Source of the DNA: Hysterangium stoloniferum
Lineage: Eukaryota > Basidiomycota > Agaricomycetes > Hysterangiales > Hysterangiaceae
Direction: 5' to 3'
Length of the DNA: 64,000 nucleotides
Assembly: GCA_015178975.1 (NCBI GenBank)
Contig: WHVD01000044.1
Coordinates: forward strand, 496,001 to 560,000
The notes under the pieces were generated by a model. The model worked only from the letters and a program-made list of their open reading frames with translations. It made no database searches and was not told the DNA's origin. The first letter of the stretch is position 1. Each line of letters opens with the position of its first letter. Below, piece by piece: positions 3,567-48,404 of the stretch. The position numbers and the translations under genes were made by a program.

Positions 3567-3663
3567 CGGTAATACGCGCCGTCTACACACCCCAATATAA
3601 TATGTCTAGTCTACATACATAAAAAAAAAAAAAGAATAGTGTGATGATCCGCAAAAAATGAAA

Positions 3664-4932
<1,269 letters not shown>

Positions 4933-10964: not shown

Positions 10965-13427
10965 ATGGCTGCTCCTGCTCCTGGATCACTTGCTTTGGAC
11001 GACAAAGACCCCCGTTTCGAAGATGCCAACGCTAAAGTCCAACAGTTGTACACTGGTAAATAGCACTTATCTCCCCGTTTCAATGCCAAAAAATGAAAAA
11101 AAAATCGCAGGTAGAGTTCCTTTTGAGGCCTTGCTCTACTATGCAAGGCTGCAACGCAAGCGCGAAGAGGTGGCGTTTACAACGATCAAAAACAACATGC
11201 CTGAAGCAGTCACTGCTGTAGCCAGCCCCAAAGAAGACGAGAAGGGTAGAACTGGGTCGCCCTCGATTTCTGCTGACGAGCGAGTTCAAGCCAACCGCGC
11301 CATTCGTACAGCGACTTGGCTGAGTGTCTTCTACCTCATTACAACGGAGTAAAGTTTTGTATTTCACCATACGGGTGTCTCGCTGACGTGATACATAGCA
11401 TTCTAGGCCCTTACTCGGCCCCTTGGGCCTTTTCACAGTTGGGTGAGTTTTGTCACTCATGAGAGTGACGACCAGTATTTAATCATATATGACAAGGATT
11501 CGTTTCGGGCGCGCTGCTTTTCTTCTTCCTTGGAATCGCTGCATTCTACACTGGAATGCAGCTTTGGAAGATGTATCTCAGCCTGGACTCCGACGAGTTT
11601 CCGGTCCAAAATTACGCTGATTTGACGGAGAGAATCTACGGCCGGTTCGCTCGTCACGCTGTGAACATTTTGCAAACCCTCCAGTTGCTTTTTAACGTAG
11701 CTGTGATCATCCGTTAGTCACTATTTACCTGTTATAATTGACTGCTGATTGCCCGAATTAAATTTACAGTGGGGTGCGATATTACCTTTAATTTTCTCGT
11801 TTTCTCATATTAAAGTTTATTCGTTTAGAAACACGCAGGGTCTATCCCAAATCTCCAAGGGCAAGGTACGGTTTTATATATCATTCAAATTATCGCTTCC
11901 CAAACAACGACCCAGGTATGCTTCTCGGTGCTTGCCTTGATTTGGATGTTGGCAGGTATGATCATCGGCCAAATAAGGTCTCTTCAAAACTACGGAAGTA
12001 AGATCCTCTTACTTATATCAGAGTAATTGCATGGTGACACTTCGCTAGATCTGGCCAACTTTGCTATCTGGTTAAATTTACTGGTCATTTTCATCACAAT
12101 GTATGTTAATCCGCCCATCTGCAGGCACTCAATTTGGCTGATCATTTCAATAGGGGCGCCGTTGCTCATTCTGCCCCCAATTTTCACGCTGCTATGATTG
12201 ACCCTGCTCCAGTAGTAGCAGCGGCTAGAATCTCGCGGCCTTTCAACGATCAGATCGTGGGCGTTATGCAAATGGTAGGTCCTATTGCTACAAGACATTG
12301 ATTCTCCGCCGATAATGACTTCTGCAGGTATACTCTTATGGGTAAGAAAGTAGTGGGTTGCAAAATATTGATGAACGCTCACAATGTTACAAGCGGTGCT
12401 ATGCTTTTTATCGAGCTCATGGCTGAAATGAAACGTCCATTCGATTTCTGGAAGGGCATGGTAATCGCGCAGGTATGCCCTGCTAGATAATCTCTCTCTC
12501 TCTCTCTCTCGTACAAGAGCTGACAGTCCTTTAGCTTCTCATTGTTACCGTTTACATGCTTTTCGGCGTGTATGTTTATGCATTCCAAGGGCAATTCACC
12601 ATCAACCCCGCCAATCAAGGTATATTTATTTCGCTCCGTCCAGTTGAAAAATCATGTTGATAAACATCGCACATAGGAATTTCCGGCTTTGCACTGCAAA
12701 CTACAACCAACGTCCTTAGTCTGGTATCTGCCATTATTGCGGCCGGTCTGTATGGCAACATTGGCTTGAAGGTTAATTTTTTCGTAAAAAAACCTACGCA
12801 AAAGCTTATACATTGTCTTTCCTAGGTCATTTACGTCAGCATTATTCAAGATCTCTTCAATGGTCCCCCGATGACCACCAGGGCTGGTCGCTTCATTTGG
12901 ACAGGTTTAGTTTTAGGATACTGGGCTTTTGCTTTTGTAATTGCCTCTGCCATCCCACAATTCTCCAACATTTCAGGTTAGTTGCTACATTCCGAAATAA
13001 GCTATTGATCTGATCACTTATTATCTACGTAGGCATTGTCGGTATGTTGCTATTGAATACAGGCATGCCTTTTACCGTTTTCTAATCTTTCTTTCTTTTA
13101 GCTGCCGTTTGTATTTTGCAATTCACCTACACCTTCCCTCCGATTCTTTATGTCGGATTTGCTATGCAGCGTGACGCAATTGAAGGTCAGCCCGAGTATA
13201 CACCGGGCGCTGATGTCGCTACTTTGCGCGCCGATACGTGGTATGATTTGTCAAGATGGCGTCGTGGGTTCGCGAACCTTTGGTGGCTCAACACCTTCAA
13301 CTTCTTGATCTTCCTCGCAGCACTTGCAACCGCAGGGCTGGGCTCGTTCTCATCTATTGAAAGCATCATTGAAGGATTCCAAAAGGCTGGAGCGGCCACT
13401 TCGTTTGGATGTAAATCACCTGTATAA
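10965..13427 (+). CDS. amino acid transporter, Aa_trans family
   Basis: Multi-exon gene with about a dozen exons and 45-70 base introns. It starts MAAPAPGSLALDDKDPRFED at 10965; exon 1 ends at 11056 and exon 2 begins at 11111. Conserved parts include DILGPYSAPWAFSQL, FLGIAAFYTGMQLWKMYLSL, QGLSQISKGK, MVYSYGGAMLFIELMAEM, YAFQGQFTINPANQG and GFANLWWLNTFNFLIFLAAL. About ten hydrophobic membrane segments follow a soluble N-terminus of roughly 100 residues, as expected for basidiomycete members of the amino acid/auxin permease superfamily (PF01490). It should move amino acids with protons across the plasma or vacuolar membrane; the substrate cannot be told. The stop is TAA at 13425-13427. Confidence 0.88.
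12491..12510 (+). repeat. (TC)n microsatellite in an intron
   Basis: Ten perfect TC units just downstream of an exon ending GMVIAQ, inside an intron of the transporter gene. It supplies a pyrimidine-rich tract. Confidence 0.85.
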
Positions 13428-15854
13428 AACGGGGACAGTTCAAGATAATATGATACGTATGACACTTGTAGAAGTAGCCGATGGGACCCACGTACTACTA
13501 GAGCTATATCACGACTTATGTGGTTCATTATGCGCAAAGAGAATTTTTTATCCCATAATATCGACAAAGATTTCTATATCAGCTCGACGAAATTTCCACC
13601 ATGAGAACAGCTTGCACAGTGGTGTTCTTAAAAAAAGTTCATACCGGCTGCTGGGTTATGTCCTGTGGAGTGTGTGCTCGTCACAGCCCCAGACTCCGCA
13701 CGCGCATGCGGTTCATTTTGTAAGAATAGGGGTACATTGTGGTGGTACTCTGGATCCGGTGTGTCCGACAATGTTTGCTGGTGATGGCCACCGCGACCAA
13801 ACAAATCGCGGCATGTGTATGGCATTGGCAGGCTTTACTATTGGCCAGCATCCCCCCCCCCCCGCCGCCCCTCCAAATCTGATATTTGCACGTGGGACAC
13901 TACTGCAGAAATCTCACGTGGAATTAGAACGGCCAAACCGCACTGAGTCACTTTTGACATACCAATATAGTCTGGTGGCAGCCAGGGGCTAACAACCATA
14001 GCACAGTACCATGCGGAGTCGCACCAGTAGCCAATAAGGCTGTATATATCCTTGCCATCCAAGGGATATTGTACATGTCGAAGCGCTAGGAACCGATGTT
14101 CTCTATTTTGAATGCTGTTCGTTTTGAATTTCCAATGGATAATAGTATAGGAAAACATTATTTCCAGATGATCTATTTGCTCTTTGATGATATGTTCTTG
14201 TCAATCCAGGGCCTACCCCAATCTAAGGCCGCTCAAGGTCATGCAGAGTGCCAGTCATTGAGTAAGGGATTGGCGTGTACATTGCAAGTCCGGACGGGGA
14301 AGCCAAGAGAAACATCGGCGCAGGTTCCTTTGCCCCTGAGCTCTTGGTTTCAGAGTACTCACCGGGATTACGAGTATTTTCTCAACATGCAGAGAACTTA
14401 AGGTGTTCGAGAACCAAATTCCACCTTTGAAATATGCCACCACTCTTCAGGCTAGCTCATCAAATTAAACTTTAAGATATCATTGTTTGCACACTCATGT
14501 CCTATCATTCGTTCTCCCTCAGGGGTACCTATCAACTGATTATATTTGTACGTGGTTATAATTATAATAACAAACCAAAGAGAGAAAGCTCCTATCTTAC
14601 CGCTCACGAAGTTCTCAGGCTTGGCTCCAAGATACGATCTTACTTTGTGATGTGACAAATCAAAAGCTGGTTAGGATAACATAAGTACAAACTGCGGATT
14701 TCTCAATAAAAACATGGCTGGGCCTGTCACTTATGGCAGTAATTTGAATATGAGTACGTGTCTGTGTGTATCAGAAGGGCAACACTTGAATTGCCACATT
14801 GTGTCATGTATCATATGATTTGTACCATATATTAGAGTATACATACTACGAAGATGTATTACGAGTGTACAGATCAGGCATTCGTAATATAACCGCCAGA
14901 GGTTCCTAATAATTCACCTGGCAGACCATGTTGTGTTCTGCCAATCCTCACCGTCCCCTATCTTTCCAATAATGTATATGAGATTGTATAGGAAAGTTAG
15001 AAGGGGTAGAGGAGATGTCACAGAACGGACAGATGTTTAAGGAGACAAACGACGAACTCAGGTTCATATTGTCCAAATGTGGTCGCCAAATGCTGTGTGC
15101 CAAACGGGACGCAAAATGGACCTCCAGAAGTTACTTTGATTTGACACGGAACATCTTGCTCAAAACTGATCATTTTCTATAAAACGACGACCGCCGGACA
15201 GCGAGTTCGTTTTGCTACGTTTGTTCAAAATCGATCGCTTTGTACTTTGAGTCGGCATGAATATTTCGCAACGCAATATTATCACGTCCATCCTTCCCTT
15301 TAATCTACACTTATCATCTGAAGGTACACAGAAACACTCACCTTCTTAACTGATTTTCCTAATCGACCTGACTGGCACCTTGAAATGCAACCATATCAAA
15401 TTGGGACAAGCACCGCAGAAGATAACCTATTCAAATTTAGCAAACTATTGACATATTCTATTCTGTATAATTCGACACCTGAATTGTCTTAACCTCTAGT
15501 GAAATAATCTGTGTTTTCACATGATCGTTCGCTAAGCGACATGCGCCTGCAAAGGCGCCATCAGTGGCCATGCCCCCGGAGCAGCCATGTGGAATTGGAT
15601 ATCTTGATGTTTTAGCCTGGATTAAAAATATACATGAATATGGGGTGCTTTAGCAGGTTACATATGATTAAAAGCACTCATATATAAAGAAATAATATGT
15701 GGCAATTCAAACAATATGCTGTGAGAATTAAGTATAAGCTGGATACAAGATATGTAATAACTTAGTATTGTTGGGATTTATTGGGATATGTTGCAAGCCA
15801 TTGGGCTTTATGACAAGCAGCTATGTCATACATTACAGTAGCTTAGTCATCAGT
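13428..15854. other. long gene-free stretch
   Basis: No protein family was recognised on either strand. Several open frames of 60-220 codons are present but lack splice-consistent extensions and known motifs. A poly-C run lies at about 13851-13864. The stretch ends at the boundary of the transposon block. Confidence 0.4.
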
Positions 15855-16423
15855 TGTATTTACTAAGGGCTTTGTCAGAAACTTATTCCAGAACTATCGG
15901 AAGTCACCAGAAATGTGGAAACTATCGGATATCAGGACATCGGCTTCAGCTTATGTGCTGCACCTCTATGCAAACACTTCGAAGTCCTTCATTTCAAAGA
16001 TGGGACTTACACTGGAAGGTATGGATATTCAGAGTTCTGAAGAGTTCCAAATATTGAGCGTACAGAAAGATGGAAGAGGGAATAAGAAACTAAGTCAATA
16101 TCAGATCTAAAGTAAAGTACAAATTCCTGGAAACTAATATAAGTCTTTTCATTATTGTACTACAAACTAAGACCACAATAAGATGGAAACAGAAATATTT
16201 TAAAACGGGAATACAATAAGACAGATAAGAGAGACTATATTCCGAAACGGGAATATAACAAACAAATGAGTGAATACTTGTCAATGGACAAATTACCAAA
16301 TGTGGAACAAAGGAAAGTGTACAGAAGATACGGGAATTATGATGTTCTGTAGTCGGAAGTCGAGGATTGGATAATCGGGAGTTGGAAGTCGGATATTGAA
16401 GTATCCAGGAACAGGTCATAACA
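15855..16423 (-). repeat. 3' LTR of element 2
   Basis: Reverse complement is clearly related to the LTR of element 1. It begins TGTTATGACCTGTTCCTGG (read on the minus strand) and ends in TACA. It contains the AGATCTGATAT word and the CAGC..GCTG hairpin also found in element 1. The polypurine tract complement (CCCCCCTGTT) lies just to the right. Confidence 0.82.
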
Positions 16424-17376
16424 GTACCCCCCTGTTAGGCTGAAGTCCCATAGAGGTGATTAGATACTGAAAGTTGAAGTGACGGTTGATCGTTATGTGT
16501 CGTGAAATTTACGCAATTCTGGAAGTGAGAGTTTTGGCTGCTGGTCTGAGTATAAAAACTTCCAAATATTCAAATTAATGATTTAGTTTCTTTAACCACA
16601 ACTTGCATGTCGATTCGTCAACCACTTTATACCATTACTCCAGAAGATTCAGATGCTGAAATTGCCTGAGGGGAAGTGGCAACAAGAGGAGGAGGAGGAG
16701 AGGGTGTTGATGTGGGAATTTGTTACGACCCGTTCCTGGATGTTTCAATATCCAACTTCCAATCTCCGACTTCCGACCTCCGACCTCCGACTACAGAACA
16801 TCACAGTTACCGTATCATCCACATTCTTCATTTGTTCCACATTTGGTAATTTGTCCGTTGACAAGTATTCACTCGTTTGTTTGTTGTATTCCCGTTTTGG
16901 AATATTGTCTCTATTATGTCTTATTGTATTTCCGTTTAAACACACTTCCGTTTCCGTCTTATTATGGTCTTAGTTTGTAGTACAATAACGAGTAGACTTA
17001 TATTAGTTTCCGGAATTTGTACTTTACAGTGACCTCAAAAACCCTTTCCATGTTGAGCCCAAATGCAGTGTTTGAAGAACACCGCCTGGGAATTACACTT
17101 AGCTTTGGTGGAGTCATACATAGTACATCCTCTTGGCTACAATATTGCTCCCTGGGTCACGTGATTCCGATCACAGGGTGTAGAGGTATGATTAATTTAA
17201 AACAGCAATACCATGGAAAGGGTTTTTGCACTTTTGAACTGATGACTAGGATCTCAGTCAAATCATAGAATAATGGCTATTATTTGTTGGTACAAATAGA
17301 TATATACATGTAAATAGTATGTCTGAGTTTAAAAAAGTTCTCACACTTCCACACTTCTTGATTCCTAACCACCATC

Positions 17377-18395
17377 ATGGTCAGATCCCTCTCTCTTACT
17401 CAACAAAATACTATCCTCTCCTTGCTTGATTCTGGCCACTCTGGTGAAGCTATTGCCAAGAGAACTGGTGTAGCCCATCTGCCATATCCAAACTTTGCTC
17501 CAAACATTGTTCTCTCCTTCCCAAAGCTGTTGGGGGTTATCCCTCAAAGCTTTCTCCTACAAATATTTGACATGCTCAGCATCTCATCATCTCTGGCAAA
17601 GCTAAAAATGCTGTCCAAGTGACCAAAGCCCTTACCAACATTATCAACCAGCCCCTCTCTGCCAGTACAGTTCGCCTCCACTTGAAGAAAGCTGGTATGA
17701 AGGCTGTGGTCAAGTCAAAACGCCCCCTTCTTTCCACTAGACATCACAAAGCTCACTTGGACTTTGCCTATGCCCACAAGGATTGGACTATGGAGGACTA
17801 GAAGAAGGTTATATGGTCTGATGAAACCAAAATCAATCACCTAGGGTCAGATGGACGTAAATGGGCATGGAAAAGGGCAGGTGAAGGCCTTAATGATAGG
17901 CTGGTAGAGGGAACTCTGAAGTTTGGAGGAGGTTCTCTTATGATGTGGGGTTGTATGACTTGGGAGGGAGTTGGCTTTGCTAGCAAGATTGATGGTAGGA
18001 TGGATGGAGACCTCTATCTTCAAAATTTGAAGGATGAGCTCCAGCAAACCCTGGAGTATTATGGTCTCAATCCTTCTGACATCATCTTTCAGCAGGATAA
18101 TGACCCTAAGCATACCTGCAGGCTGGTCAAGAACTGGCTAGAAGAGCAAGAATTCAGGACTATGGTTTGGCCTGCACAGTCCCCAGACCTGAATCCTATT
18201 GAACATCTCTGGGGTTGTCTCAAGAGAAGGCTTGCAGAGCATGAAAACCCCCCCAATGGAATTCATGAATTGTGGGAAAGGATTCAAGTGGAGTGGGATA
18301 GAATACCAGTTGAGGAGTGTCAGAAATTGATTGAAAGCATGCATAGAAGGGTTCAGGCAGTGCTTAAAGCAAAAGGTGGTTATACCAAGTACTGA
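17377..18395 (+). pseudogene. Tc1-type DDE transposase, broken
   Basis: Starts MVRSLSLTQQNTILSLLDSG with a helix-turn-helix region, is frameshifted near 17480-17620, and resumes at VTKALTNIINQPLSASTVRL. An in-frame TAG lies in DWTMED*KKVIWSDE. The DD34E residues remain: D in WSDETK, D in FQQDNDPKHT, E in SPDLNPIEHLW. It ends KAKGGYTKY. It is clearly related to the better preserved transposase at 33842-34858. Confidence 0.9.
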
Positions 18396-18480
18396 TAATA
18401 TGTAAATACCCTGTTCAGTTCAGAAGTGCAAAAACCCTTTCCATGGTATTGCTGTTTTAAATTAATCATATCTCTATACC

Positions 18481-19202
18481 TGTTACGACCGTGTCGCAAC
18501 CCTATCGGTCCCGAGGTTATCACCACTTGTCAACATTTCAAGTCATCCTCTCGGAAACCATCGGCCCCGAAGCTGACGAATGTTTTCACGAAGATCAAAC
18601 TCCGTTTACACCCACGTCAAAATAACTCGTATTGTCTGGTCAAACTTTGATACATCCCCTTTATTATGTTGATCCGTCCAATCTTATGTTTTGCATATGT
18701 CTATCTATATTTGTAGTCCTTGAACTATTTCCTTTTATCGTAATCCCGCTCTCGGTTATCATCGGCCTCTGAACTAATCATAAACTTCCCGTTCCTAGTC
18801 AAGCTTATTGTTAATACCATGTTCCGCCCTTCTCCCCATTAGTATTTTCCAGACGCCTGTTACTTGTATATGAACCCACTGTAGTTGTAGTCACTAGGCA
18901 ATCAGAATATCGACTCAGAATACCCTCATACGCCTGTATCAGTCTCATACTAAGAATCCCCCCATCTGCCTTCGCATGCGCTCGCCCACTCCCGGCCCCG
19001 ACCCCTTGGCCCGATGCTCGACTTGTCCTTCGATTCCGATCGGTATCACGCTGAAAGGTACTCATTAGGATTAGTCTTCGCCCGCCCGAAATTTAAGGAC
19101 ATCCTACAGATATTTGCGAGGGCGCAGCACATAAGCTGAAGCCAAGTCCTTCCGATCGGTCCCTGTCGGCCACCGACATTAGTCAGTTTTCAGTTCTTAA
19201 CA
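18481..19202. mobile_element. solo LTR B inside Tc1 element A
   Basis: A 722-bp TGTTACGACCG..CTTAACA block flanked by ATACC at 18476-18480 and 19203-19207, the 5-bp duplication of an LTR element. It interrupts the right inverted repeat of the Tc1 element. It shares only end motifs and the CAGC..GCTG hairpin with the LTR of element 1, so it is a different family. No internal region remains. Confidence 0.87.
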
Positions 19203-19623
19203 ATACCCTGTGATTGGAATCACGTGACCCAGGGAGCAATATTGTAGCCAAGAGGATGTACTATGTATGACTCCACCAAAGCTAAGTGTAATTCCCACGC
19301 TGTAAGGCGGTGTTCTTCAAACACTGCATTTGGGGTCAACATGGAAAGGGTTTTTGAGGTCACTGTACCTTAGATCTGATATCGACTTAGTTTCTTATTC
19401 CTTCTCCCGTCTTTCTGTACGCTCGATATTCGGAACTCTTCGGAACTCTGAATATCCATATCTTCCATTGTAAGTTTTACTTCCGAAATTAAGGACATTG
19501 AGCATTTGCGTAGAGGTGCAGCACATAAGCTGAAGCCGACGTCCTGACCCTATCCACGAGTTTCCAACTTCCCGGTGACTTTCCAATAGTTCCGGAATAA
19601 GTTCCCGACATGGCACTTAACAG

Positions 19624-19635
19624 TATATCAGATCT
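19624..19635 (+). promoter_or_regulatory. primer-binding site, self-priming type
   Basis: Two bases after the 5' LTR comes ATATCAGATCT (19625-19635). It is the exact reverse complement of AGATCTGATAT inside the LTR (19372-19382; also 26136-26146), near the likely 5' end of the transcript. Tf1/sushi chromoviruses prime with the first 11 nt of their own RNA in just this way. No tRNA-like TGG site is seen. Confidence 0.65.
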
Positions 19636-19656
19636 CAACTCTGCGACTCGCTCATC

Positions 19657-20889
19657 ATGGGTCCCAAACACAAAGCTGCTGAAGGACCATCCCAACTTCA
19701 ATCCCCGTTGCAACTTTACACCACTCAATCCGAAACCCCTTTTCAGCCGACAACATCAGCTTCAGTCGAAGAAGTTACCGAGGAGGTTACCGAGGTAACA
19801 AAGGACACCAATGTTCACCACACTTCCGACAACGAAGCAGAAGATCAACCGGAGACATTGAAAAAGAAATCTTCCGATGAACCGACTGAAATGTTGTTTA
19901 TCAACTCCATTGTGAAATTCGCTGACTATTTGAAATCCGCTGAGGATAGTAAAGAATCTTCCCGCACCGGAGTCAAAGAACCCGAACCATTTACCGGCAA
20001 GGATCCGAAAAAATTGAAGAATTTCCTTCTTCAATGCCATTTCAGTTTCCATGATCGACCCACTGCATTTAAATCCAACAGTCGAAAAGTCAATTTTGCA
20101 CTCTCTTATCTCAAGGATACCGCTCAAGATTGGTTCGAACCCGGACTATCTGGAATATCCGATAAGACACCTGTATGGCTCGATGACTGGGACGCTTTTG
20201 TGGAAGAACTGGAAACTAATTTCGGACCTTACGATCAATCCGGCGAAGCGGAAAATGAACTGATGATGCTCAAGATGAAGGACAATCAACGAGTTTCCGA
20301 TTATCTCATCAAGTTCAATACCCTCGCCGCACGATGTGGATGGGATGATTCCGCCCTCAGACACCATTTCTATATGGGACTTCCTTCACGCCTTAAAGAT
20401 GAAATCTGCAAAGATGGAAAGCCTAAAACTCTCCAACTCATGCGGATGAAAGCTCAAACATCCGATGCCCGTTATTGGGAATGAAAAGCCGAGGTTTCTC
20501 GAGAAAACCCAACGGAACATTCTCAGAACAACAAGGCGTCGACTAGCAAGTCTTCTGGCAACAACTCAGGCAATAATACTGGCAACTCTGGCACTAATAC
20601 TGGCAAATCAACTTCCGACTGGAAAAAAGACAAGAAATCCAACAAGGAAAAACAGTCAACTTCCGACAAACCCGACATTTCCCATTTGTTGGGTACCGAC
20701 GGTAAACTCACCCCGAAGGAGAAACAACGACGTATGGACAACGACCTCTGCCTTTTCTGCAGGAAAGGTGGACACAAGGTTTCTGACTGTACCGTTAAAT
20801 CTAACTCTTCCAAGGCCCGCGCGGCAACTTCCACTATGACTACAACAACGTCCAAGGAAAAACCCGCCACAGAGCCAAAAAAAGAGTAA
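19657..20889 (+). pseudogene. gag of element 1
   Basis: Starts MGPKHKAAEGPSQ. A capsid-like retrotransposon gag region covers about residues 95-270 (PFTGKDPKKLKNFLLQC, YLIKFNTLAARCGW). A TGA at 20482-20484 (WE*KAEVS) breaks it; the frame then continues through an Asn/Ser/Gly linker to a zinc knuckle CLFCRKGGHKVSDC (CX2CX4HX4C). The TGA looks like a CGA arginine codon changed by C to T. Confidence 0.88.
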
Positions 20890-20899
20890 GCAACCCTCC

Positions 20900-21475
20900 G
20901 GAATCTGCATGGACAGAAGGTTGCATTGACTCTCTCCATGTTTCCGAGGTTATCCGTCTCAACGCGTCCGCTCTCTCTAATCCCGATTCATTATTTGTAA
21001 AACTCGTTTCTTACTTTCTTGAAAATTTAGTGTTCCGAGCTCTAATAGATTCCGGCTCCACACACTGTTTTGTAGATACCACCTTTGCCATGAAACATAA
21101 TCTGAAACTCCATTCTGTTCCCGCAATTTCCTTGTGTCTGTTTGACAGCACTAGCAATACGGCAATTACCCAAGCCTGCGACATGTCTATCCGGTTCCCT
21201 TGTGGAACATCCCAGACGGTTACTTTTTTCGTAACACAGTTGGACTCTAGCTGTTCGGTAGTTCTTGGATACAACTGTACAACTGGCTCACCTGATATAA
21301 TCCGTTGATTGACTGGGTATTGGGCAGTATTAATTTCTGAATTCCCGACACTCCGTTTCCTCCTGCACCGTCTTTTCCGGCCAATGCCTTTTCAGCATCT
21401 ACGGCATCTCCGGCTTCTACCGAAACCTCCGCGCCTCCAAAAATCTCTCTCATCAATGCTTCGGCATTTGTTAGG
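20900..21475 (+). pseudogene. aspartic protease region of element 1
   Basis: After a frame change around 20890 the reading is WTEGCIDSLHVSEVIRL, then ALIDSGSTHCFVD (DSG catalytic triad) and VLGYN. A short duplication (AACTGTAC) near 21282-21297 and a TGA in WLT*YNPLIDWVLG break the frame again before the reverse transcriptase. Confidence 0.82.
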
Positions 21476-22921
21476 GTGAGTAAACTGGATGGTTCGCAGT
21501 GTTTTTCAATCAGCTTAAAAGTTGATGAAGCATCTGGACGTTTTGCGACTCCAGAATTATCCGAGCTAAAAGCCGACCTGGAAGGAGTTCCCGAAAAATA
21601 TCATGATTTCACGGACATTTTCAGTAAGCAAAAAGCTGACCGGCTTGCACCACATAGGCCTTACGACTTAAAAATCGATATTGAGCCCGGTTCGAACCCT
21701 CCGTTAGGACCTATTTACCCATTATCCCAATCGGAACTTTCGTCTATTCGGGAGTTCTTGGATGAACATTTGTCGATAGGTTTTATCTGTCCCTCAAAGT
21801 CTCTGTATGGAGCACCTGTCCTTTTTGTCAGAAAGAAGGACGGCTCTCTTCAACTCTGTGTCGATTTCAGAGGATTAAATTCCATCACACGGAAAGACAA
21901 GTATCCACTTCCACTCGTTACCGATTTACTTGACGCCCCATGGAAAGCTCAGATCTACACCAAAATAGACCTCAAACATGCCTATCATTTGGTCCGAATT
22001 GCTGAGGGCGATGAATGGAAAACTGCTTTTCGGACTCGCTATGGATCCTTTGAATGGTTGGTTATGCCGTTCAGCCTTACCAACGCCCCTTCCACTTTTC
22101 AACGTTTTGTTAATGATATATTTTCCGACATGCTTGACGTATGTGTTATAGTCTATTTGGACGACATTTTGGTATTTTCCGAAGATCCCGCTCTTCACGA
22201 CGAACAAGTCCGTGAAGTTTTCCGAAGACTCCGTAAAAACGGTCTTTTCGCCAATGGTAAAAAATGCTACTTTGACATGGATTCTATTGAATACTTAGGC
22301 TTCATTATCGGACCTGATGGTCTCCGTATGGATGAAACCAAAGTTCAAGTTGTCCGTGATTGGCCTGAACCACGGAAAGTCAAGGATATTCAGTCATTTT
22401 TGGGTTTTGCCAACTTTTACTGTCGTTTTATTTGGAACTACTTGGATATTACAGTACCGCTCACTCGTCTTACCCGTAAAACTCAACCATGGGTCTTTGA
22501 CGACAAATGCCGCTCCACCTTTCAGACTTTAAAAAATGCTTTCACTTCTGCCCCGATTCTTTCCCATTGGAAACCTGATGTTCCGATTATTGTGGAAACC
22601 GATGCTTCCAATTATGCAATTGCCGCAATTCTTTCCATTCAAGATTCCGACGGTGAAATTCATCTGGTTGCATTCCTTTCTCGGACACTGAAAGTGTCCG
22701 AACTCAACTACGACGTTCATGACAAGGAACTTTTGGCAATTTTTGAAGCTTTTAAACATTGGCGCCATTATCTCGAAGGTTCTGCAACTCCCGTTGACAT
22801 TGTTACCGATCACAAAAATCTGGAATATTTTTCTACCACTAAACTTTTAACCCGCCGGCAAGCCCGCTGGTCCGAACACATCTATCCGAGCAACTTCCCT
22901 CTACTATCCAATTATGTGTAG
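21476..22921 (+). pseudogene. reverse transcriptase and RNase H of element 1
   Basis: 481 codons open. Contains [73 protein letters not shown] and the catalytic YLDDILVFS. The RNase H part has VETDASNYAIAAILS, NYDVHDKELLAI and VTDHKNLEYFSTTK. Against element 2 about 190 bp are missing after ARWSEH, removing the RNase H end and the HLGRKPDAMTRRW tether, and the frame is lost at HIYPSNFPLLSNYV*. Confidence 0.93.
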
Positions 22922-24085
22922 CGTCATGATTATGGACATTGAACAGTTACATCAAGATATCCTTTCCGCACTCACTTCCGATCTGGTTCTCAAGCCACAC
23001 CTAGAAGTTCCTGACAATCCGGACCAACCTCGATGGTCACAGGACTCTCAAGGTTTTATCCGTCTCAATGGATGTATCTACATTCCAGATTCCAACAATC
23101 TCCGACTCCGCGTACTTCAGTATAAACATGATCATCCAATCTCCGGACATTACGGCATTAACAATACTCTTGGTTTAATCCGTAGAGAATATACATGGCC
23201 CAACCTCCGAGATTTTGTAACCCAATTCTGTAAGTCATGCACCACCTGCTTACGCTCTAAGACCCAGAGGCATAAGCCGTACGGCCTTCTCAAGCAACTC
23301 CCGATACCGGAAAAACCCTGGAATTCAATTTCCATGGATTTTATCGAACAACTCCCGACTTCCGAAGGCTTTACTTTACATCCATTCTAGTTGTTGTGGA
23401 TCGATTCTCGAAACAAGGCATTTTCATACCCACTCATGATACAATCATGTCCTTACAATTAGCGGAACTTTTCATTATTCACGTATTTTCCAAACACGGA
23501 GTTCCATCTCACGTAACTTCCGATCGAGGTTCCAAGTTCGTCTCCCATTTCTTCCAAGCCCTCGGAAAAGCCCTCGACATGAAACTACACTTCACCTCAG
23601 GATATCACCCGGAACGTGATGGACAAATGGAACGTGTAAATCAAACATTGGAACAATATCTCTGCATCTATTGCAATTACCAACAGGACAACTGGAAATC
23701 CCTTCTCCCGATCGCAGAATTCGCCTACAATAACTCTCCGAATGCAACTACCGGCATATCTCCTTTCTTCGCCAACAAAGGCTATAATCCAAATCTCACC
23801 ATATATTCCAAACGAGATTTGGCTTCTGTCTGTGCTCAAGAATTTATTACCGACCTCGACGAATTACATCAAGAACTTCGGAAAGCTATTTCTTCTGCAC
23901 AGGAATATTATCAACGTTCCGCGGACAAAAACAGGATCCCACCTCCTAACTTTAAAATCGGTGATCAGGTTTTTGTAAAAGCTCAATTCTTCCATACTAC
24001 CCGACCTTCTAAAAAGCTCACTGAGAAATTCTTAGGACCTTTTGAAATTATAGCACAAGCTGGTTCTCTCTCATGGACTCTCTGA
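22914..24085 (+). pseudogene. integrase of element 1
   Basis: Zinc-binding HHCC part: HDHPISGHYGINNTLGLI followed by CKSCTTCLRSK. Catalytic core: D in SMDFIEQLPTS, D in TSDRGSKF, E in NQTLEQYL, in the usual spacing. A small insertion near 23375 shifts the frame (EGFTLHPF* in place of EGFTSILVVVDRF in element 2). It ends FEIIAQAGSLSWTL and then a TGA in front of the chromodomain segment. Confidence 0.92.
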
Positions 24086-24097
24086 CTTCCCGATAGT

Positions 24098-24421
24098 ATG
24101 CGAGCAGTTCACCCCGTTTTCCACGTTTCCATGTTAGAACCCTGTGTTCCTAACAAAATCCCGGAACGTATTCAACCTCCGTCCCCTCCGGTCATTATTG
24201 ACGGAGAACCCGAATTTGAAGTTTCCGAAATTTTGGATTCTAAAATCGACAATCACCGACGTACTTGTAAATTGCTCTATTTAGTCAAATGGGCAGGCTA
24301 TGAAGGTACCGACGAGGAAACTTCATGGATATTGGCCACAGAACTTGGACACGCTATGGAAATTGTTACTGACTTCCACACAGCTTATCCAAACAAACCC
24401 GGACCTTTATCATCACTTTAA
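24098..24421 (+). pseudogene. integrase C-terminus with chromodomain
   Basis: Continues the integrase after the TGA at 24083-24085: MRAVHPVFHVSMLEPCVP, then a chromodomain EFEVSEILDSKID .. LLYLVKWAGYEGTDEETSWI. This places the element among the chromoviruses, whose chromodomain targets integration to marked chromatin. The TGA again sits where related elements have Arg (WTLRLPDS). Confidence 0.9.
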
Positions 24422-24517
24422 TCCTTTTCTGTTTTCTTTCTGTTCAGTTTCCGACACTCCCGACACTTCCGATATCACACTCGTTTTAGGTTTTGCAAGT
24501 CAAAAATATTATTAGGA

Positions 24518-25638
24518 CTATTTTAAAGTCTCCGATACCCCAAATCCACTTTCCATCCCGACTTCCATCTCATCAGCAATTTCCGCACTTTCCACCATAT
24601 CCTGCACCTCTTCATCATCACTCTCAGATACTTCCGGCCCATTTCCTGACTCCCACCTTTTTTCGACACATTCCGCCAACGGATCATTAGGCTGCTCCCG
24701 TGCCTTATCGGAAAATCTCTCGGATACTGCAATTACACCGATGCTAACCATTATCTTCTCCAGGAATTTGTTTTGCCTCCGGAAGTTCCGGATCAACGAA
24801 CGGAAACCTTTTTCCTGGATTTCATTATGGCGATCTATTGTATCTCGCATTTTCATAACTTCCGTCCCGATAAAGACTAACACGTCAACAGTATCTTTGA
24901 GGAGTTCCATGCCCGTACTATCCGTTTTCGGCACCTCAGTTTCCGCAGCCTTGGCTGCTCCCGAACCTTCCGCGTCATTAGCTTTTTGAGCCTTCTCACC
25001 TTTTGGAACTTTTTTTGAGGCGAGAGTGCACGGAAGTTTGAGAACCGCACAGGGATAGCAAGTTCCACCCCATTTTACCTTCTGTTTCCAACACGTCATA
25101 CTCTGTATGGAACATCGATAACACAGATTTTCATGGACAACTTCCATCCGTTCCAGAGCCTTGACCTTTGGCTTCTGTTTCAGAAGTTAACCAATTACCG
25201 GTCTTTTTTGTAGATGTACTTACTTTAGGACTCGAAGGTCCGGCTTCTCCCTCTACCTCCACCTCCACGGCTTTTCGCTGGACCCAATAGTTATCAGTTG
25301 AAATCACCGAATCTATGGACGGAACTTACCTTTCCTTCCCTTACCTCCTTGAGTTTTTTCGCCACCTCTGCTTCCCGCTGTAACCTTTCCAACTCTTCCT
25401 TCCTTTTCTGAGCCTCTGCCTCCACCTTCACCCGCTCCAACTCCCATTTTTCCGCATCTTCCGCATCCTTCAACTCCTGCATCAACGCCTTCTCCTCCTC
25501 CTCTTGTCGTCGCTTCAACTCCTCCATTCTTTGTCATTTTTGTTGAAGTTCTGTGACCTTCGACATTTTTTGTAGAACGGCAATTTCGGTATCTGAATCT
25601 TCCAGGGTAGTGATGAACAATGGCCGACGAATGGACAT
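24518..25638 (-). CDS. accessory gene antisense to gag-pol, coiled coil plus Zn2Cys6-like cluster
   Basis: Three exons on the minus strand: 25638-25330, 25277-25224, 25174-24518, with canonical GTAAG donors and AG acceptors, giving about 339 codons. Exon 1 begins MSIRRPLFITTLEDSDTEIA and forms a Glu/Lys-rich coiled coil (EELKRRQEEEEKALMQELKD). It holds one in-frame TGA at 25534-25536. Exon 2 encodes an acidic RKAVEVEVEGEAGPSSPK linker. Exon 3 has a cluster C-x2-C-x6-C-x10-C-x2-C-x6-C (CYRC .. CYPC), the spacing of fungal Zn2Cys6 DNA-binding domains. A second helical region (RHNEIQEKGFRSLIRNFRRQ) and an acidic tail ending GFGVSETLK follow. The same gene with the same introns is in element 2, so it belongs to the family. 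It is a retroelement accessory gene; no function is known to me. Confidence 0.75.
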
Positions 25639-25810
25639 ACAAGTTGTGGATAAAGAAACAAAAACGTTAATTCGAATATTTGAAGGTTTTTATACTCAGC
25701 ACATCAGCCGAAACTCTCACCTCCAGAATTGCGTAAATTTCACGACACATAATAATCAGCCGTCGCTTCAATCACTCAGTACCTAATCGCCTCTATGGGA
25801 TTTCGGCCTA

Positions 25811-25822
25811 ACAGGGGGGTAC
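25811..25822 (+). promoter_or_regulatory. polypurine tract of element 1
   Basis: ACAGGGGGGTAC directly precedes the 3' LTR and is the expected plus-strand primer. Element 2 has the complementary sequence beside its LTR. Confidence 0.75.
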
Positions 25823-26386
25823 TGTTACGACCCGTTCCCAGATGTTTCAATAACTGACTTCCGATCTCTGACTTCCGACCTCTGACCTCCGACTACGGAA
25901 CATCACAGTTACTGTATCATCCGCGTTCTTCGTTTGTTCTGCATTTGGTAATTTGTCCGTTGACAAGTATTCACTTGTTTGTTTGTTGTATTCCTGTTTC
26001 GGAATATTGTCTCCCTATTATGTATTATTGTATTTCCATTTAAACACACTTCCGTTTCCGTCTTATTATGGTCTTAGTTTGTAGTACAATAACGAGTAGA
26101 CTTATATTAGTTTCCGTGAATTTGTACTTTACCTTAGATCTGATATCGACTTAGTTTCTTATTCCTCCTCCCGTCTGTCTGTACGCTCGATATTCGGAAC
26201 TCTTCGGAACTCTGAATATCCATATCTTCCGTTGTAAGTTTTACTTCCGAAATTAAGGACATTGAGCGTTTGCGTAGAGGTGCAGCACATAAGCTGAAGC
26301 TGACGTCTTGACCTTATCCACGAGTTTCCAACTTCCCGGTGACTTTCCGATAGTTCCGGAATAAGTTCCTGACACGGCACTTAACA
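25823..26386 (+). repeat. 3' LTR of element 1 (564 bp)
   Basis: Uninterrupted LTR from TGTTACGACCC to CTTAACA, followed by the GAATT duplication. It carries the AGATCTGATAT word at 26136-26146 and the CAGC..GCTG hairpin at 26283-26296. Confidence 0.93.
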
Positions 26387-26948
26387 GAATTGAAGGAGGT
26401 GGAAGAGGCGGAAAAGTGTGAGTTGGAGTGGGTGAAGGCAGAAAAGGAGGTGTGGTTACAGAAAATGGCAGAGGATTGGAGGTTGAAAGAAGAAATAGAG
26501 AAAAAGCAGTGGGAGGCTGAGGCAGCAGAAAAGTGAGTAAAGGAGATAAGGGAGGGGAAGGTAAGTGAAAACAACAATGTTCCATGTTTCTTCCGATAAC
26601 AATTGAACACAGTGAAAAGCCGTGGAGGTGGAAGTAGAGGGAGAGGCTGGGCCTTCAAGTCCTAAAGTAAGTGATTCTGTAAAAGGTCAGAAGTTGACTA
26701 ATTTCTGTAACAGAAACAAAAGGTCAAAACTCCAGAATGGATGGAAGTCATCCACGATAGCCCGTGTTACTGGTGCTCGATTTGGAACTTGACTTGTTGG
26801 AAGCAGAAGGTAAAATGGGGTGGAACTTGCTATCCCTGCACAGTACTCAAACTTCCGTGCACTCTTGCTGTGAAGAGGGCTCCAAAAGGTGAGGAGGTTC
26901 AGAAAACTGATGACACAGAAAATTTGGGAATGGCCAAGACTGCGGAGG

Positions 26949-32797: not shown

Positions 32798-33506
32798 TGT
32801 AATGTATTCAGGGGTTTCTCTTAGATAGCTCAATATATGCTATAGTGTCACAGAGCTTCAACAATAAAACAAGCAAAGGTCCAGTAATTTAAATACTGAT
32901 AGATTAATGAGCTGTGCTATTAAGCTTAAACAACTCAAATCAATGCTTATTTTGATTATTGAAAGGTTCAATAGAACAATATATGACTCTTTTAGCAAAT
33001 AAAAGAACTATTCCTTGAGAATAGGGGCTGGAAGCTGAATATATATACAGTAAATTGGCAGAGACTTGATATAAGAGCTTCGGATTCTTGTATACCTATT
33101 TGTAACTAATAATAGTTATTTAACAAGGTGTTAAATAATTTATTAATAGAGAAAATAATTTGTATTGAATTTCTAGTGTGCTTGTACTTGATTAATTCAC
33201 TAGCTTAAGGGATGGGCCTTGAATAATCTAGTATTGGCAGGGAATTTCAGTACAGATACTTAGATACTTATTAGGTTTATTAAGTAATTAATAAGCCTAA
33301 AGGGTAGCTGTGAGGCTGGGGGAACTTAGATGATTAGCTAAGTTCAAGAGTTGCTGACAAAGATTTCAAGCAAGTGTAGGTGCTTGTAGTTAGTGTATCA
33401 GACTAAGGCTATTATTGTCCTTAGGATGATTAGATAAGCTTCTGTGCTGTGTTGCAAAATATGAGTGTGATAGATTGATTTTATTGGAAACTTGGCCCTC
33501 CTTATA

Positions 33507-35097
33507 CAGTGACTTACAAAATGTATCCAATGTTTTGTAGTTTCAGCTTATATATGCTATATCCCAGTAGATAAAATAGTAGAAATCACCAAAATATCTG
33601 TGAACATGACCTATCATGTATATATGGATATGGTAGAACTATATTATGTAATATCATATATGGAAACACTATGAATATTTTAATAGAGAGGGCTCATTGG
33701 ATTGACAGGTTCTAGCATGAAAACCATGTGCCTATGTTGATTGTTTGCAGTTGTTTATGTTTTTCAACATGTCATGTGATCATTCTATACTACAGTATAA
33801 GTAGAAGGGCTTTCTCAGCTAAGATTCCCTCAATTCTAACTATGCATCCCCTTTCCACTGCTGCCCAGTATGAGATCCTTTTTCTACTTAATGCTGGCCA
33901 TTCTGCCAGACATATTTCAGTTTCTACTGGCTATAGCAATGCTACTATCTCTAGACTTTGTTCTAAACACTGTTCCCACCTTTCTAAGTCCTCTGGTAGT
34001 CACCCTTCCAAACTCTCCACAGCCAACATCCATTTTGCACAACACCTTATCAGCTATGGAAAGGCTGATACAGCTGTAGATGCAACAAAGGCACTTTGCA
34101 CTATCACCAACCAGTCACTCAATCCTCAAACAGTGTGTTGTGGACTCAAGGCAGCTGAGATGAAGCCTGTGGTAAAGAAGAAAAGGCCTCTTCTGTCTAA
34201 GAGGCATAGGAAGGAGAGGATGGATTTTGCTTTGGCACATCAGGATTGGACTGTGGAGGATTGGAAGAAGGTGGTGTGGTCTGATGAGACCAAAATTAAT
34301 AGGCTGGGGTCAGATGGCAGGAAGTGGGTGTGGAAAAAGGCAGGGGAGGGCTTGAGTGACAGGCTGGTTGAGAGAACCCTGAAGTTTGGTGGTGGATCTT
34401 TAATGGTTTGGGGGTGCATGCTGTGGGAGGGGGTTGGGTATGCATGCAAGATTGATGGAAGGATTGATGGGGATCTCTACATCCAGGTTCTGGAGGATGA
34501 CCTGCAAGCAAGTCTTAAGGACTATGGTAAATCTGCCAATGGTATCATCTTCCAGCAAGACAATGACCCCACGTATACCTGCAAGAAGGCCCAGAATTGG
34601 TTCCAAGAAAATGGTTTCAGGGTTCTCTCATGGCCAGAACAGTCTCCTGACTTGAATCCCATTGAACACCTATGGAATCACCTGAAGAGGAGGTTGGCAG
34701 GGTATGAGAATGCACCCCAGGGGATGGAAGAGTTGTGGGAGAGGGTGGTGGATGAATGGTACAATATTGATGAAAAGGTGTGTCAGGATTTGATTTAAAG
34801 TATGCCTAGGAGGGCTTCAGATGTATTAAAGGCAAAGGGTGGCTACACTAAGTACTAAATACTAGTAATTTCCTGCCTAAATGTGTCAGTTACAAAATGT
34901 ATCCAATGAATGCTCTCCATTGAAATATTCATAGTGTTTCCATATATGGATATTACATAATATAGTTCTACCATATAAATATATACATGATAGGTCATGT
35001 TCACAAATATTCTGGTGATTTCTACTATTTTATCTACTGGGATATAGCATATATAAGCTGAAACTACAAAACATTGGATACATTTTGTAAGTCACTG
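33507..35097 (+). mobile_element. Tc1/mariner element B
   Basis: 1591 bp between CAGTGACTTACAAAATG and its reverse complement, with about 200-bp terminal inverted repeats. TA is duplicated at 33505-33506 and 35098-35099. Repeat R copy 2 shows the empty site (CTTATATACATTTTGATAAC at about 40989-41008). It encodes an almost intact transposase. Confidence 0.95.
33842..34858 (+). pseudogene. Tc1-type DD34E transposase, one stop from complete
   Basis: About 338 codons from MHPLSTAAQYEILFLL. The N-terminal helix-turn-helix is followed by WSDETKINRLGSDGRKWVWK, FQQDNDPTYT and SPDLNPIEHLW; 34 residues lie between the second Asp and the Glu. A single TAA (34796-34798) interrupts DLI*SMPRRASDVLKAKGGY; the related copy A has Glu there. 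The usual DPKHT motif reads DPTYT. Cut-and-paste transposition is the family role; this copy is probably inactive. Confidence 0.92.
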
Positions 35098-35579
35098 TAT
35101 ACATTTTGATAACTATATAAATAATTAGCTAATTATTTATTTTATGAGGTCATTAGTTAGGTCATAATGACCTCATATTCTACCTATTTTTTACCCTTTA
35201 TTTATCATGTGATTCCTCTCTCTGAGACAAAGGTTCCAACCTTCAGCTTGAACATGAAGGTTCAAGGCCGTGGTCCTGGGACGGAAGCAATTGATGAGTT
35301 GGCGGAATCAATTAATGACTTGAGTAGTCACATCCGTGACTTGTGTGATATCCAGACACCGAAGGCTTATCTAATAAGTCACATGACTTCAAAAATGCAC
35401 AAACAAGGTGTATAATAGCATTATATGAGCTCATATATGCTATTATTATGTGAAGTTAAAAGGAATAAGGCCTTTTATTTCACAATAAAAATATAATAAA
35501 AATACAATAAATTCGAAAAAACATTAAATAATCCACAGAAAATTAAGAGAATATTATGAGATAAGGCTGATACTTCACA

Positions 35580-35935: not shown

Positions 35936-36388
35936 TGTTTGTGAAGATAAGAATATCATCCATGTAGACAATGACAACTTACCATCAATCAACTCTATGA
36001 ACAAGTCATTCATCATGGTCTGAAATGTAGCAGGACTATTGGTGAGACCAAAGAACATGACCAATGGTTCAAACAGTCCTCTGTTGGTTCTGAAAGCTGC
36101 CTTCCATTCATCTCTTTCCTTTATTCTGACATTGTTATAGCCCCATCTGACATCCAACTTAGTGAAGTATTTGGTTTCTTTTAACTTGCTGATAATGTCA
36201 GAGATGAGTGGTAGAGGATAGGAGTTTTTGATTGTGATGTCATTTAGCTTTCTGTAATCCTGGACCAACCTTAAAGAGCCATCGTTTTTCTTTATAAAGA
36301 ACACTGGAGATGCCATAGGAGACTTGGAGGGTTGGATCCTTCCACTTTTAAGGTTCTCTCCTAAGAATTCATCCAGTTCCTTCTGCAT
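35936..36388 (-). pseudogene. reverse transcriptase of element 3, truncated
   Basis: [74 protein letters not shown], then a frameshift and the [12 protein letters not shown] block right at the join. Its sequence differs clearly from elements 1 and 2. Confidence 0.88.
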
Positions 36389-36394
36389 GTGGTG

Positions 36395-36585
36395 CTAAAG
36401 GATAGAGCTGTTGGTAATCAACCTGACATCCCTAGAATATTATAGAATATCTTGGAATATACTTAACAAAGCTTTAGTAATATCTCTGTTATCCCTTCTA
36501 GAACATTCTCCCTGTAGATATATATATAATCCCCAGTAGTTCACTTGTAGATACAATCCAAGTTATATTCTAATATCTACTGTGG
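36395..36585. mobile_element. small AT-rich insertion in element 3
   Basis: Coding reads ..KLLLGTCADHS up to about 36585 and resumes with [19 protein letters not shown] at about 36400. The 190-bp block between them has no coding sense and looks like a miniature element or LTR scrap. A target duplication was not resolved. Confidence 0.5.
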
Positions 36586-37535
36586 TCTGCGCAAGTTCCC
36601 AATAGGAGCTTGCTTCTAAAAGGTTCTGATCCAGGCTTCAATTCAATGGCATGATCCCAGGGTTTCTTATCTGACAATCTATCAAAAGACTCTTTGGAGA
36701 ATATTCCCTTGAACTGGTGATAACATTTTGGGACTAGTTCCTCAATGGTTTTCTTCTGGTCTTGTTTATGAGACTCCTCTGCCAACTTCTGTGATACAGT
36801 AGAAGTAGCATTGATATTAGACTGAGGATAGATAGTTGTAGCCCAGATCCTGTCACCGTCTTCAACCCCTGACTGATCATCATCCTGATCATCTTCATCT
36901 GCATCCTCAATAAGACTAGGAAGTTTCCTTCTAGACTCTGCTGTGTTCCTTTGTCTACTTTTCTTGATTCTCCTAATCTGGAGAGAACATTCAGGTGGAC
37001 ACCTGGTCAAATCTACTTGTCCAGTTCTCCAATTGATTTCAGGGTTATGGTGAAAGAGCCAGGTATGTCCAATAATTGCAGATTTTTCTCCAAGGTCACA
37101 TACAGCAAAGAGTGCCTTTTCTGTATGATCCTTGAAGATCATTGTCAATTCTACTTCTTCATGGATAGAGCCTCCTTGGTTCAATGTCCCATCAACATTG
37201 TAGACAGGGATAGGTCTAGGGAGTTTAATTGTATTAAGATTGTGGTATTCCACAAATCTTTTGTCCAAAAAGGAACCAGTAGCTCCACTGTCTAATAGTG
37301 CAGTTACTGACATTCTAACTCCTGTGTCCAAGGACCTGAGAACAATAGGAAGCTGGGTAGAGGTTTTGGGGTTGAGACTCCTGATATAAATTCTTTCAGG
37401 GAGACCTTCTGGAGAGGGTGTGGCTGACATGGGTTCTGAATTAGTGTCTAAAGTTTCTGGTTGACTTGAGATAATTTCTTGGGGATCCTCTAATACACTA
37501 AATTTATTACTCCATTGGGACATGTCCTTCACCAA
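36570..37535 (-). CDS. protease-linker region of element 3
   Basis: 321 codons open. Retropepsin-like domain with VTALLDSGATGSFLDKRFVE (DSGA) and SAIIGHTWLFHHNPEINW. It then runs through an acidic linker (EDADEDDQDDDQ) to KCYHQFKGIFSKESFDRL, the lead into reverse transcriptase. It is separated from gag by a single stop at 37536-37543. Confidence 0.85.
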   Translation of the reverse strand: MVKDMSQWSNKFSVLEDPQEIISSQPETLDTNSEPMSATPSPEGLPERIYIRSLNPKTSTQLPIVLRSLDTGVRMSVTALLDSGATGSFLDKRFVEYHNLNTIKLPRPIPVYNVDGTLNQGGSIHEEVELTMIFKDHTEKALFAVCDLGEKSAIIGHTWLFHHNPEINWRTGQVDLTRCPPECSLQIRRIKKSRQRNTAESRRKLPSLIEDADEDDQDDDQSGVEDGDRIWATTIYPQSNINATSTVSQKLAEESHKQDQKKTIEELVPKCYHQFKGIFSKESFDRLSDKKPWDHAIELKPGSEPFRSKLLLGTCADHSRY

Positions 37536-37543
37536 TGGTGCCT

Positions 37544-39900: not shown

Positions 39901-40019
39901 TGCTTTCAATTTGGTGGCAGCAGCACAATTACATAATTGTTCTCATGCTGTGCCTGCACTGCTACATGTAAATATAATAAAATAAACTAAAATAAAAAAT
40001 AAATGGCAAAAATATATAT

Positions 40020-40290: not shown

Positions 40291-40291
40291 T

Positions 40292-41550: not shown

Positions 41551-41589
41551 ACCTCCTATACTGGAGTAACCACTGGGAGGATCCCTTTT

Positions 41590-43230: not shown

Positions 43231-43245
43231 ACTTGGTTCTCCTCC

Positions 43246-48400: not shown

Positions 48401-48404
48401 GTTA

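Follow-up and report, generated by a model that had tools for sequence, protein, structure and literature searches.

In the fungus Hysterangium stoloniferum a chromodomain-carrying Ty3/gypsy retrotransposon, a chromovirus by domain content, has on the strand opposite to gag and pol a gene of three exons, the predicted product of which contains six cysteines spaced as in the Zn2Cys6 proteins of fungi. We have analysed this gene in a 64,000-nucleotide stretch of contig WHVD01000044.1 (positions 496,001 to 560,000; in what follows the window, with coordinates counted from its first letter) and in other copies of the element found in the 111 Mb genome assembly of 554 contigs. By the available sequence tests the antisense gene is real. 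A high-copy chromodomain retrotransposon retains here an intron-bearing accessory gene under selection of about the level seen in gag. As to its function, we give roughly even chances to the idea that the zinc-cluster protein encoded by the element acts on TTCCG sites of its own long terminal repeat (LTR) and in this way controls transcription or silencing.

Structure and conservation of the antisense gene

The gene lies on the minus strand between the stop of pol (24421) and the 3' LTR (25823), with its ATG at 25638 and its TAG ending at 24518. A preliminary description of this DNA had reported a three-exon gene on the opposite strand between the chromodomain and the 3' LTR, and this is confirmed. 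It had also called the gene antisense to gag-pol, which is correct as to the strand, but the gene does not overlap with gag-pol. A TATAAA box (25689..25694) stands 56 nt before the ATG. Exon 1 (25330..25638, 309 nt) is charged and rich in E, K, R and Q. The two introns, of 52 nt (25278..25329) and 49 nt (25175..25223), are both in phase 0 and run from GTAAGT to CAG, and exon 2 between them (25224..25277) has 18 codons. Exon 3 (24518..25174, 657 nt including the TAG stop) encodes the six-cysteine cluster, a long helix and an acidic tail. The cluster has the form CX2CX6CX10CX2CX6C and is located at 25028..25123.

Forty loci of the element were located, and the window together with the 35 loci that gave one collinear alignment over 1400 bases makes up a set of 36 sequences (L016, L022, L038, L056 and L057 were left out). 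The sampled copies are those closest to an old copy in the window. In six other loci for which both LTRs were read, the 5' and 3' LTRs are 93.6–97.3% alike, so that the sampled copies are not fresh. The TATAAA box, the ATG, the GTAAGT donors of both introns and the CAG of intron 1 are present in all 36 sequences, the AG of intron 2 in 35 and the TAG stop in 33, and all six cysteines are found at the exact spacing in 33/36. Exon 2 has 54 nt in every copy; exon lengths are multiples of three in 30/36 copies for exon 1, the length of which varies, in 36/36 for exon 2 and in 32/36 for exon 3. Indels in the exons are mostly multiples of three, and intron lengths shift by single bases. The invariant TATAAA box agrees with the suggestion that the gene has an antisense promoter signal of its own. 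The two introns are probably spliced out of the antisense transcript. They would survive retrotransposition because they are present as reverse complements in the sense genomic RNA, where the spliceosome does not see them.

There are two copies of the element in the window, the younger of which (copy 1) carries the gene described above. In a six-frame scan of the window the cluster pattern, in strict or looser form, was found exactly twice, once in each copy, in line with the earlier statement that the spacing is kept exactly in both. The claim that both copies have the same gene holds in so far as copy 2 retains the TATA box, the ATG, both GTAAGT donors and the six cysteines; neither gene is intact, however. 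That of copy 2 is broken in exon 1 and interrupted within exon 3, and that of copy 1 has an in-frame TGA at codon 35 in exon 1.

Purifying selection on the antisense frame

The Nei-Gojobori ratio of nonsynonymous to synonymous change (omega) has a median of 0.222 over 630 pairs of copies, going from 0.288 in the least-diverged quartile to 0.187 in the most-diverged one. Because CpG decay biases this ratio, we used a trinucleotide-context null, in which each observed change is re-dealt to sites of equal trinucleotide context. It was applied to 72 pairs, which overlap and are not independent, and 100 null sets were made. With this null, omega in exon 3 is 0.519 for all changes, 0.407 without CpG-type transitions and 0.397 for transversions only; exon 1 gives 0.497 without CpG-type transitions. 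The observed ratio of nonsynonymous to synonymous changes is below all 100 null sets for each exon 3 variant and for exon 1, and stop-creating changes in exon 3 occur at 0.45 of expectation. The preliminary description had suspected selection on the antisense frame and named a ratio near 1 as a sign against it. Under the context null omega is about 0.4–0.5 and not near 1, which does not refute the suggestion.

Other frames of the same DNA behave differently. Omega is 1.38–1.59 in two other antisense and two sense frames of exon 3, and 2.33 and 1.07 in the two other antisense frames of exon 1. Stops in the antisense coding frame average 0.25 per copy, and 24/32 copies are free of them; any other frame is open in none of the 32. 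A chance open frame is ruled out by the omega of the coding frame and by the stop counts. Coding on the sense strand in the mirror frame was considered (omega 0.554) and rejected, for on average each copy has 3.47 stops in this frame and 0/32 are open; the low omega of the frame arises because its third positions face the third positions of the antisense frame. The same results bear on whether the antisense transcript alone could matter, for example in small-RNA silencing, with the frame being incidental. Noncoding antisense transcripts are described for other retroelements in passages of PMC7264820. Here the exon 3 coding frame has an omega of 0.4–0.5 against 1.38–1.59 in the four other non-mirror frames, and the antisense frame is open in most copies when any other frame is open in none. 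These tests contradict antisense RNA as the sole explanation, which we regard as very improbable.

For comparison, omega without CpG-type transitions in the same element is 0.296 for reverse transcriptase (RT; n=12), 0.349 for integrase (n=16) and 0.467 for gag (n=7), values that come only from 8 kb loci with 90% cover, the window included, while exon 3 used all 36 sequences. Judged by these values, the antisense gene is constrained about as tightly as gag and less than RT. Along the locus, divergence is lowest in the leader from the LTR to the ATG (0.051) and amounts to 0.074 in exon 2, 0.110 in exon 3 and 0.135 in intron 1.

Copy number and a homologue in a sister family

Copies of the gene were sought in the whole assembly. 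There are 190 places that match a 24-base degenerate pattern for WGGTCYPC and 264 that match the promoter word (31 bases around TATAAA, up to 3 mismatches), and the reversed controls gave 0 in both cases. A search with the exon 3 protein yielded 790 candidates, of which the best 150 were scored, and a search with the integrase 4128, of which about 150 best were scored. The window's own place was left out of both lists, and one partial match was left out of the integrase list; of the 190 pattern places the first 100 were listed. The counts of gene–integrase pairs are lower bounds, because they rest on these best-scored lists. No internal stop is present in 111 of the 150 best exon 3 matches. 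At least 104 of the 137 listed integrase places (identity 87% or more) are followed within 3.5 kb by the antisense gene on the other strand, at a median distance of 1.1 kb, and a listed integrase was found for 95/149 listed exon 3 places. When only listed integrases with pol frames of 1,223–1,239 codons are counted, 14/15 have the gene behind them. Two of these 15 long pol frames carry one TGA inside the match; in the 12 of the 14 genes that are also among the best 150 exon 3 matches there is no exon 3 stop. Absence from most intact copies, which the preliminary description had named as a point against the gene, is thus not what was found.

The next integrase group is 81–82% identical and has 11 places among the matches listed, 0/11 of which paired with listed exon 3 matches. 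We read one of the 11, L058, and in the 1.2 kb behind its integrase there is an antisense gene of like build (L058:117-1077). It has a TATA box, an exon 1 of 100 codons, an intron of 50 nt, an exon 2 of 28 codons, an intron of 47 nt and an exon 3 of 159 codons. Both introns are in phase 0, and the cluster CNRCTKRGRTCHPRTNGRGRTCQECADQKLGC has the identical CX2CX6CX10CX2CX6C spacing. Exon 3 of L058 is about 21–25% identical to that of the main family. Between the two genes tblastx aligns the cluster alone (41%, E 2e-4), and blastn gave no convincing DNA similarity (best E 0.02). The antisense gene most likely arose before the two families separated; its protein has diverged far more than the integrase. 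Exon 2 of L058 is acidic (SESDDEEGEEDEED), and its cluster is much more basic than the cluster of the main family. Such a basic cluster suggests a DNA preference unlike that of the main family. None of 75 pattern stretches from IMG/VR and none of 81 from prokaryote genomes was a relative.

The spacing of the cluster is of a kind that fungal hosts themselves have, and one could suppose that the element has captured a fragment of a host transcription factor, which it carries as passive cargo. Passive cargo is at odds with purifying selection, with the occurrence of the gene in most of the listed copies and with a sister-family homologue that has the same introns. From the selection, the wide presence and the sister homologue at about 25% identity it follows that the gene has long resided in the element under selection. 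Passive capture is contradicted by the presence in the listed copies and by the sister homologue, and we give it hardly any weight; capture could still have been the origin of the gene.

The predicted protein

The predicted protein has about 340 residues and consists of a charged N-terminal region, a short acidic and proline-containing stretch, the six-cysteine cluster, a long helix and an acidic tail. The fraction of E, K, R and Q in exon 1 is 0.65. A coiled coil had been assigned to the protein in the preliminary description. We have dropped it for exon 1, where heptad hydrophobicity is no better than in shuffled sequences (P 0.64). The long helix that is predicted lies in exon 3 and has P 0.09 in the heptad test. 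AlphaFold places this helix at residues 86–160, with a confidence score (pLDDT) of 61–90 in ten-residue blocks and above 80 in 5 of the 8 blocks. Of the structure prediction that had been proposed for the cluster, it is the exon 3 helix that came out with confidence, not the cluster.

CX2CX6CX10CX2CX6C fits the spacing of the Zn2Cys6 class, and a basic loop is typical of these proteins. The six cysteines match the spacing of the Gal4-type fungal transcription factors (PF00172), but the main family is without the typical basic loop; L058 has more basic residues there. The six-cysteine cluster probably binds zinc, and the protein is likely a DNA-binding regulator, as its cysteine pattern suggests. 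The fungal-type DNA-binding protein postulated earlier gains from the fact that the cysteine spacing is kept in the divergent sister gene, and loses from the profile, structure and database results given below. Pfam models of TRP28 and SMC gave no match.

Instead of in transcription, the protein could act in the particle or the pre-integration complex, by nuclear import, as an RNA chaperone or as a tether to integration sites. The charged part encoded by exon 1 might have a general, sequence-independent affinity for nucleic acid, and nuclear entry and accessory functions have been proposed for plant antisense open reading frames (ORFs) in passages of PMC7264820. The element already has a chromodomain, however, and a six-cysteine cluster of fixed spacing together with an enriched LTR word fits sequence-specific binding better, so that we consider a role in the particle improbable.

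The TTCCG word and a possible mode of action

Of all 5-mers TTCCG/CGGAA has the strongest excess in the 3' LTR of copy 1, namely 14 occurrences against 1.31 expected (reached in 0/300 dinucleotide shuffles). Among the CCG contexts of this LTR TTCCG occurs 14 times and the next one twice, and the sites are distributed across the whole LTR. The LTR has 24.8 of them per kb, as compared to 8.0 for the interior of the element and 1.2 for positions 1-15800 of the window. The LTRs of 29 loci and of the two window copies, 31 in all, have a median density of 17.5 per kb, and the flanks of the loci one of 2.2. The excess extends to coding parts, where there are 36 sites against 19.1 under synonymous-codon shuffling (0/1000); it is strongest in exon 3 (11 vs 4.1), and the second integrase part has P 0.011. 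TCCGA is likewise over-represented in the coding parts (33 vs 18.3). It is because of this excess, and because CGG triplets are the usual half-sites of Zn2Cys6 proteins, that we propose binding of the antisense protein to these sites; TTCCG as its target word is a guess.

In the working model the accessory gene between pol and the 3' LTR would be transcribed in antisense direction from its own TATA promoter, and the transcript would be spliced twice. The zinc-cluster protein would bind in trans to TTCCG/CGGAA sites that have accumulated in the LTR of its own element, and the bound protein would switch transcription of the element or prevent its silencing. As to the direction of the effect, activation or anti-silencing is favoured over repression. 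The model predicts a concrete protein–DNA pair, namely the antisense zinc-cluster protein and the TTCCG sites of its own LTR. In its most specific form it describes a self-specific activation or anti-silencing system on the antisense strand, where a fast-diverging zinc-cluster protein co-evolves with a short word, TTCCG in this family, that is spread over the LTR and occurs even at synonymous sites. We hold this form to be rather unlikely.

Several observations weigh against a DNA-binding protein that acts on this word. The whole three-exon frame is open in just 4/36 sampled copies (L002, L004, L006 and L051). Exon 2 alone has no signal of selection (omega 0.99 under the context null, with 65 substitutions in 18 pairs). 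AlphaFold confidence is low at the cluster (block pLDDT about 35–53), no Pfam model, Zn_clus (PF00172) included, was matched at curated cut-offs by the exon 3 frames of the window, L006 and L058, and exon 3 of the sister L058 had no sequence match in PDB (best E 0.58). As for the word, TTCCG also leads the CCG contexts in the 12.8 kb of DNA that flanks the loci (24% of 116, vs 52% of 514 in LTRs), DNA that may hold other element copies. The coding excess is not significant singly in gag, RT, the first integrase part or exons 1 and 2 together. In the one sister stretch read, L058 without its LTR, TTCCG is outside the eight commonest CCG contexts. The CpGs of TTCCG sites are kept no better than other CpGs of the LTR (a median of 0.61 for both, over 13 and 20 columns; P 0.90), with no trace of protection after insertion. 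Regulation of the element's expression, as suggested in the preliminary description, has become more plausible through the enriched LTR word and finds no backing in CpG retention.

The excess of TTCCG may also be unrelated to the gene and reflect sites of a host activator, or a habit of mutation or repeat expansion in the LTR. The head of the LTR is partly a tandem array of units that contain TTCCG, and a rough count by regular expression gives from 1 to 5 units among the 31 LTRs; this variation, together with the low frequency of the word in L058 and its place as commonest CCG context in the flanks, would suit such an origin. The spread of sites over the whole LTR and the excess in coding sequence under synonymous shuffling suit it less well. 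We see an unrelated word as a serious possibility that falls short of even chances, and its probability overlaps with those of the other alternatives.

Relation to known systems

Antisense ORFs between pol and the 3' LTR are known from plants as aORF-3R. They include gene23 of Grande and those of RIRE2, Retand (with a TRP28 domain) and PvRetro13, and passages of PMC7264820 and PMC11963269 report a proposed nuclear or DNA-binding role for them, similar to that considered here, and an own promoter for the ORF of Grande. The gene described here likewise is an antisense coding frame between pol and the 3' LTR and is found in most listed copies of its family. It differs from the plant cases in that it belongs to a chromodomain element of a fungus, has two short introns and encodes a zinc-cluster-like protein without TRP28 or SMC match. 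In fungal gypsy elements passages of PMC2864245 mention extra domains such as dUTPase and, in a figure legend, an 'additional ORF with unknown function'; the extra coding capacity is alike, and antisense orientation or a zinc cluster is not mentioned in these passages. A term search for 'antisense' in the text of PMC3248453, a survey of fungal LTR elements, found no occurrence. Among the top matches in the open-licence literature, judged by title and opening of the abstract, there was no description of a retroelement from a fungus with a zinc-cluster gene on its antisense strand.

HBZ of human T-cell leukemia virus type 1 (HTLV-1) and APH-2, APH-3 and APH-4 of HTLV-2, HTLV-3 and HTLV-4 are antisense genes with spliced RNA that regulate their own LTR, as stated in passages of PMC10186651. 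The likeness of HBZ to the gene studied here is one of topology, and we claim no sequence relation: HBZ is a basic leucine zipper protein expressed from the 3' LTR, while in the present case the candidate domain is a six-cysteine cluster and the promoter signal stands in the stretch that separates the LTR from the gene. This likeness nevertheless suggests copy-number control, in which the antisense protein, and perhaps also its RNA, would keep down sense transcription that starts in the LTR, in the manner of HBZ and the APH proteins of deltaretroviruses. Both genes are antisense, spliced (as predicted for ours) and downstream of pol, and each has a putative DNA-binding protein as its product. 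Expression from the 5' LTR is reduced by HBZ (passages of PMC10186651), and enrichment of sites in the LTR suits a repressor no less than an activator. The 190 places for one exon 3 pattern argue against strong self-limitation, without excluding it. We consider repression of this kind unlikely, and activation or anti-silencing stays the direction that we favour, although the observations are compatible with either.

The VANDAL elements of Arabidopsis are DNA transposons, i.e. another class of element. Their VANC proteins reverse silencing and bind to short words, which have built up in the very transposons that encode these proteins (passages of PMC5735166). For the working model only, the common features are a protein encoded by the element, a short word in the element's own non-coding DNA and turnover of this word by tandem repeats, as passages of PMC5735166 describe for VANC. 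TTCCG is accumulated in the element and rare in positions 1-15800 of the window and in the locus flanks. The proteins are different, and binding and demethylation have been shown for VANC, whereas here binding is a proposal from sequence. If the model is true, we would have here a retrotransposon counterpart of VANC/VANDAL, with introns shielded from reverse transcription by their position on the opposite strand. It would then give access to the question by what means retrotransposons of this sort avoid or adjust their silencing where the repeats of a genome are losing CpG, and it would place VANC proteins, the antisense ORFs of plants and HBZ of retroviruses side by side as answers found more than once to a single problem.

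Architecture of the element and its surroundings

Copy 1 occupies 16721..26386 on the plus strand and is flanked by 5-bp target duplications, GAATT, at 16716-16720 and 26387-26391. Its LTRs are of about 564 bp. The 3' LTR (25823..26386, plus strand) is the one with 14 TTCCG/CGGAA sites, and the 5' LTR is split by insertion of a DDE transposon; 25823-26132 matches 16721-17027 at 92.6% and 26126-26387 matches 19362-19623 at 95.8%. The inserted DDE_3 (Tc1/mariner-like) element is at 17081-19303 and has 99-nt inverted ends that are 97% alike. Gag is encoded on the plus strand at 19657..20484 (Pfam Retrotrans_gag, 2.5e-14). The pieces of pol for RT, RNase H and integrase follow on the same strand at 21476..24085, in frames that are broken in this copy (Pfam RVT_1, RT_RNaseH, Integrase_H2C2, rve and SH3_Tf2-1); RVT_1, RNase H and Integrase_H2C2 pass the Pfam cut-off, and rve is under its curated cut-off. 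Pol ends with the chromodomain at 24128..24421 (plus strand; Pfam Chromo 2.5e-07, above the cut-off), with the stop TAA at 24419-24421.

Copy 1 sits within the antisense gene of the older, oppositely oriented copy 2 and splits it. The part of copy 2 at 15864..16720 (minus strand) comprises the 3' LTR, the antisense promoter and the start of exon 1, up to the insertion of copy 1; beyond this insertion copy 2 continues from 26387, and its six-cysteine cluster is at 26765..26860 on the plus strand. Within copy 2 there is a stretch (33503-35101) with 153-nt inverted ends that are 97% alike.

A further Ty3-type element with a different gag (Retrotrans_gag and Ty3_capsid) adjoins copy 2 at 36570-38410 on the minus strand, and a frame in the same region looks like protease and RT on reading. 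A short tandem repeat array of the VQSQCMHI type at 39040-39900 has several open frames, which are found on both strands. At 49381-53423 (minus strand) there is an open frame of 1332 codons, which on reading consists mostly of ankyrin-like repeats at 99-nt spacing. These repeats are strikingly homogenised, with 35 register copies of a 300-nt reference that are mostly 87–93% alike. Near this frame, a NACHT/NLR-like frame is present at 53865-54470, a label that also comes from reading. CpG is nearly gone in 36001-54000, with 1–14 per 2 kb block as compared to 47–117 in 1-16000 and 54001-64000, and this depletion is probably the trace of CpG methylation and deamination of old repeats.
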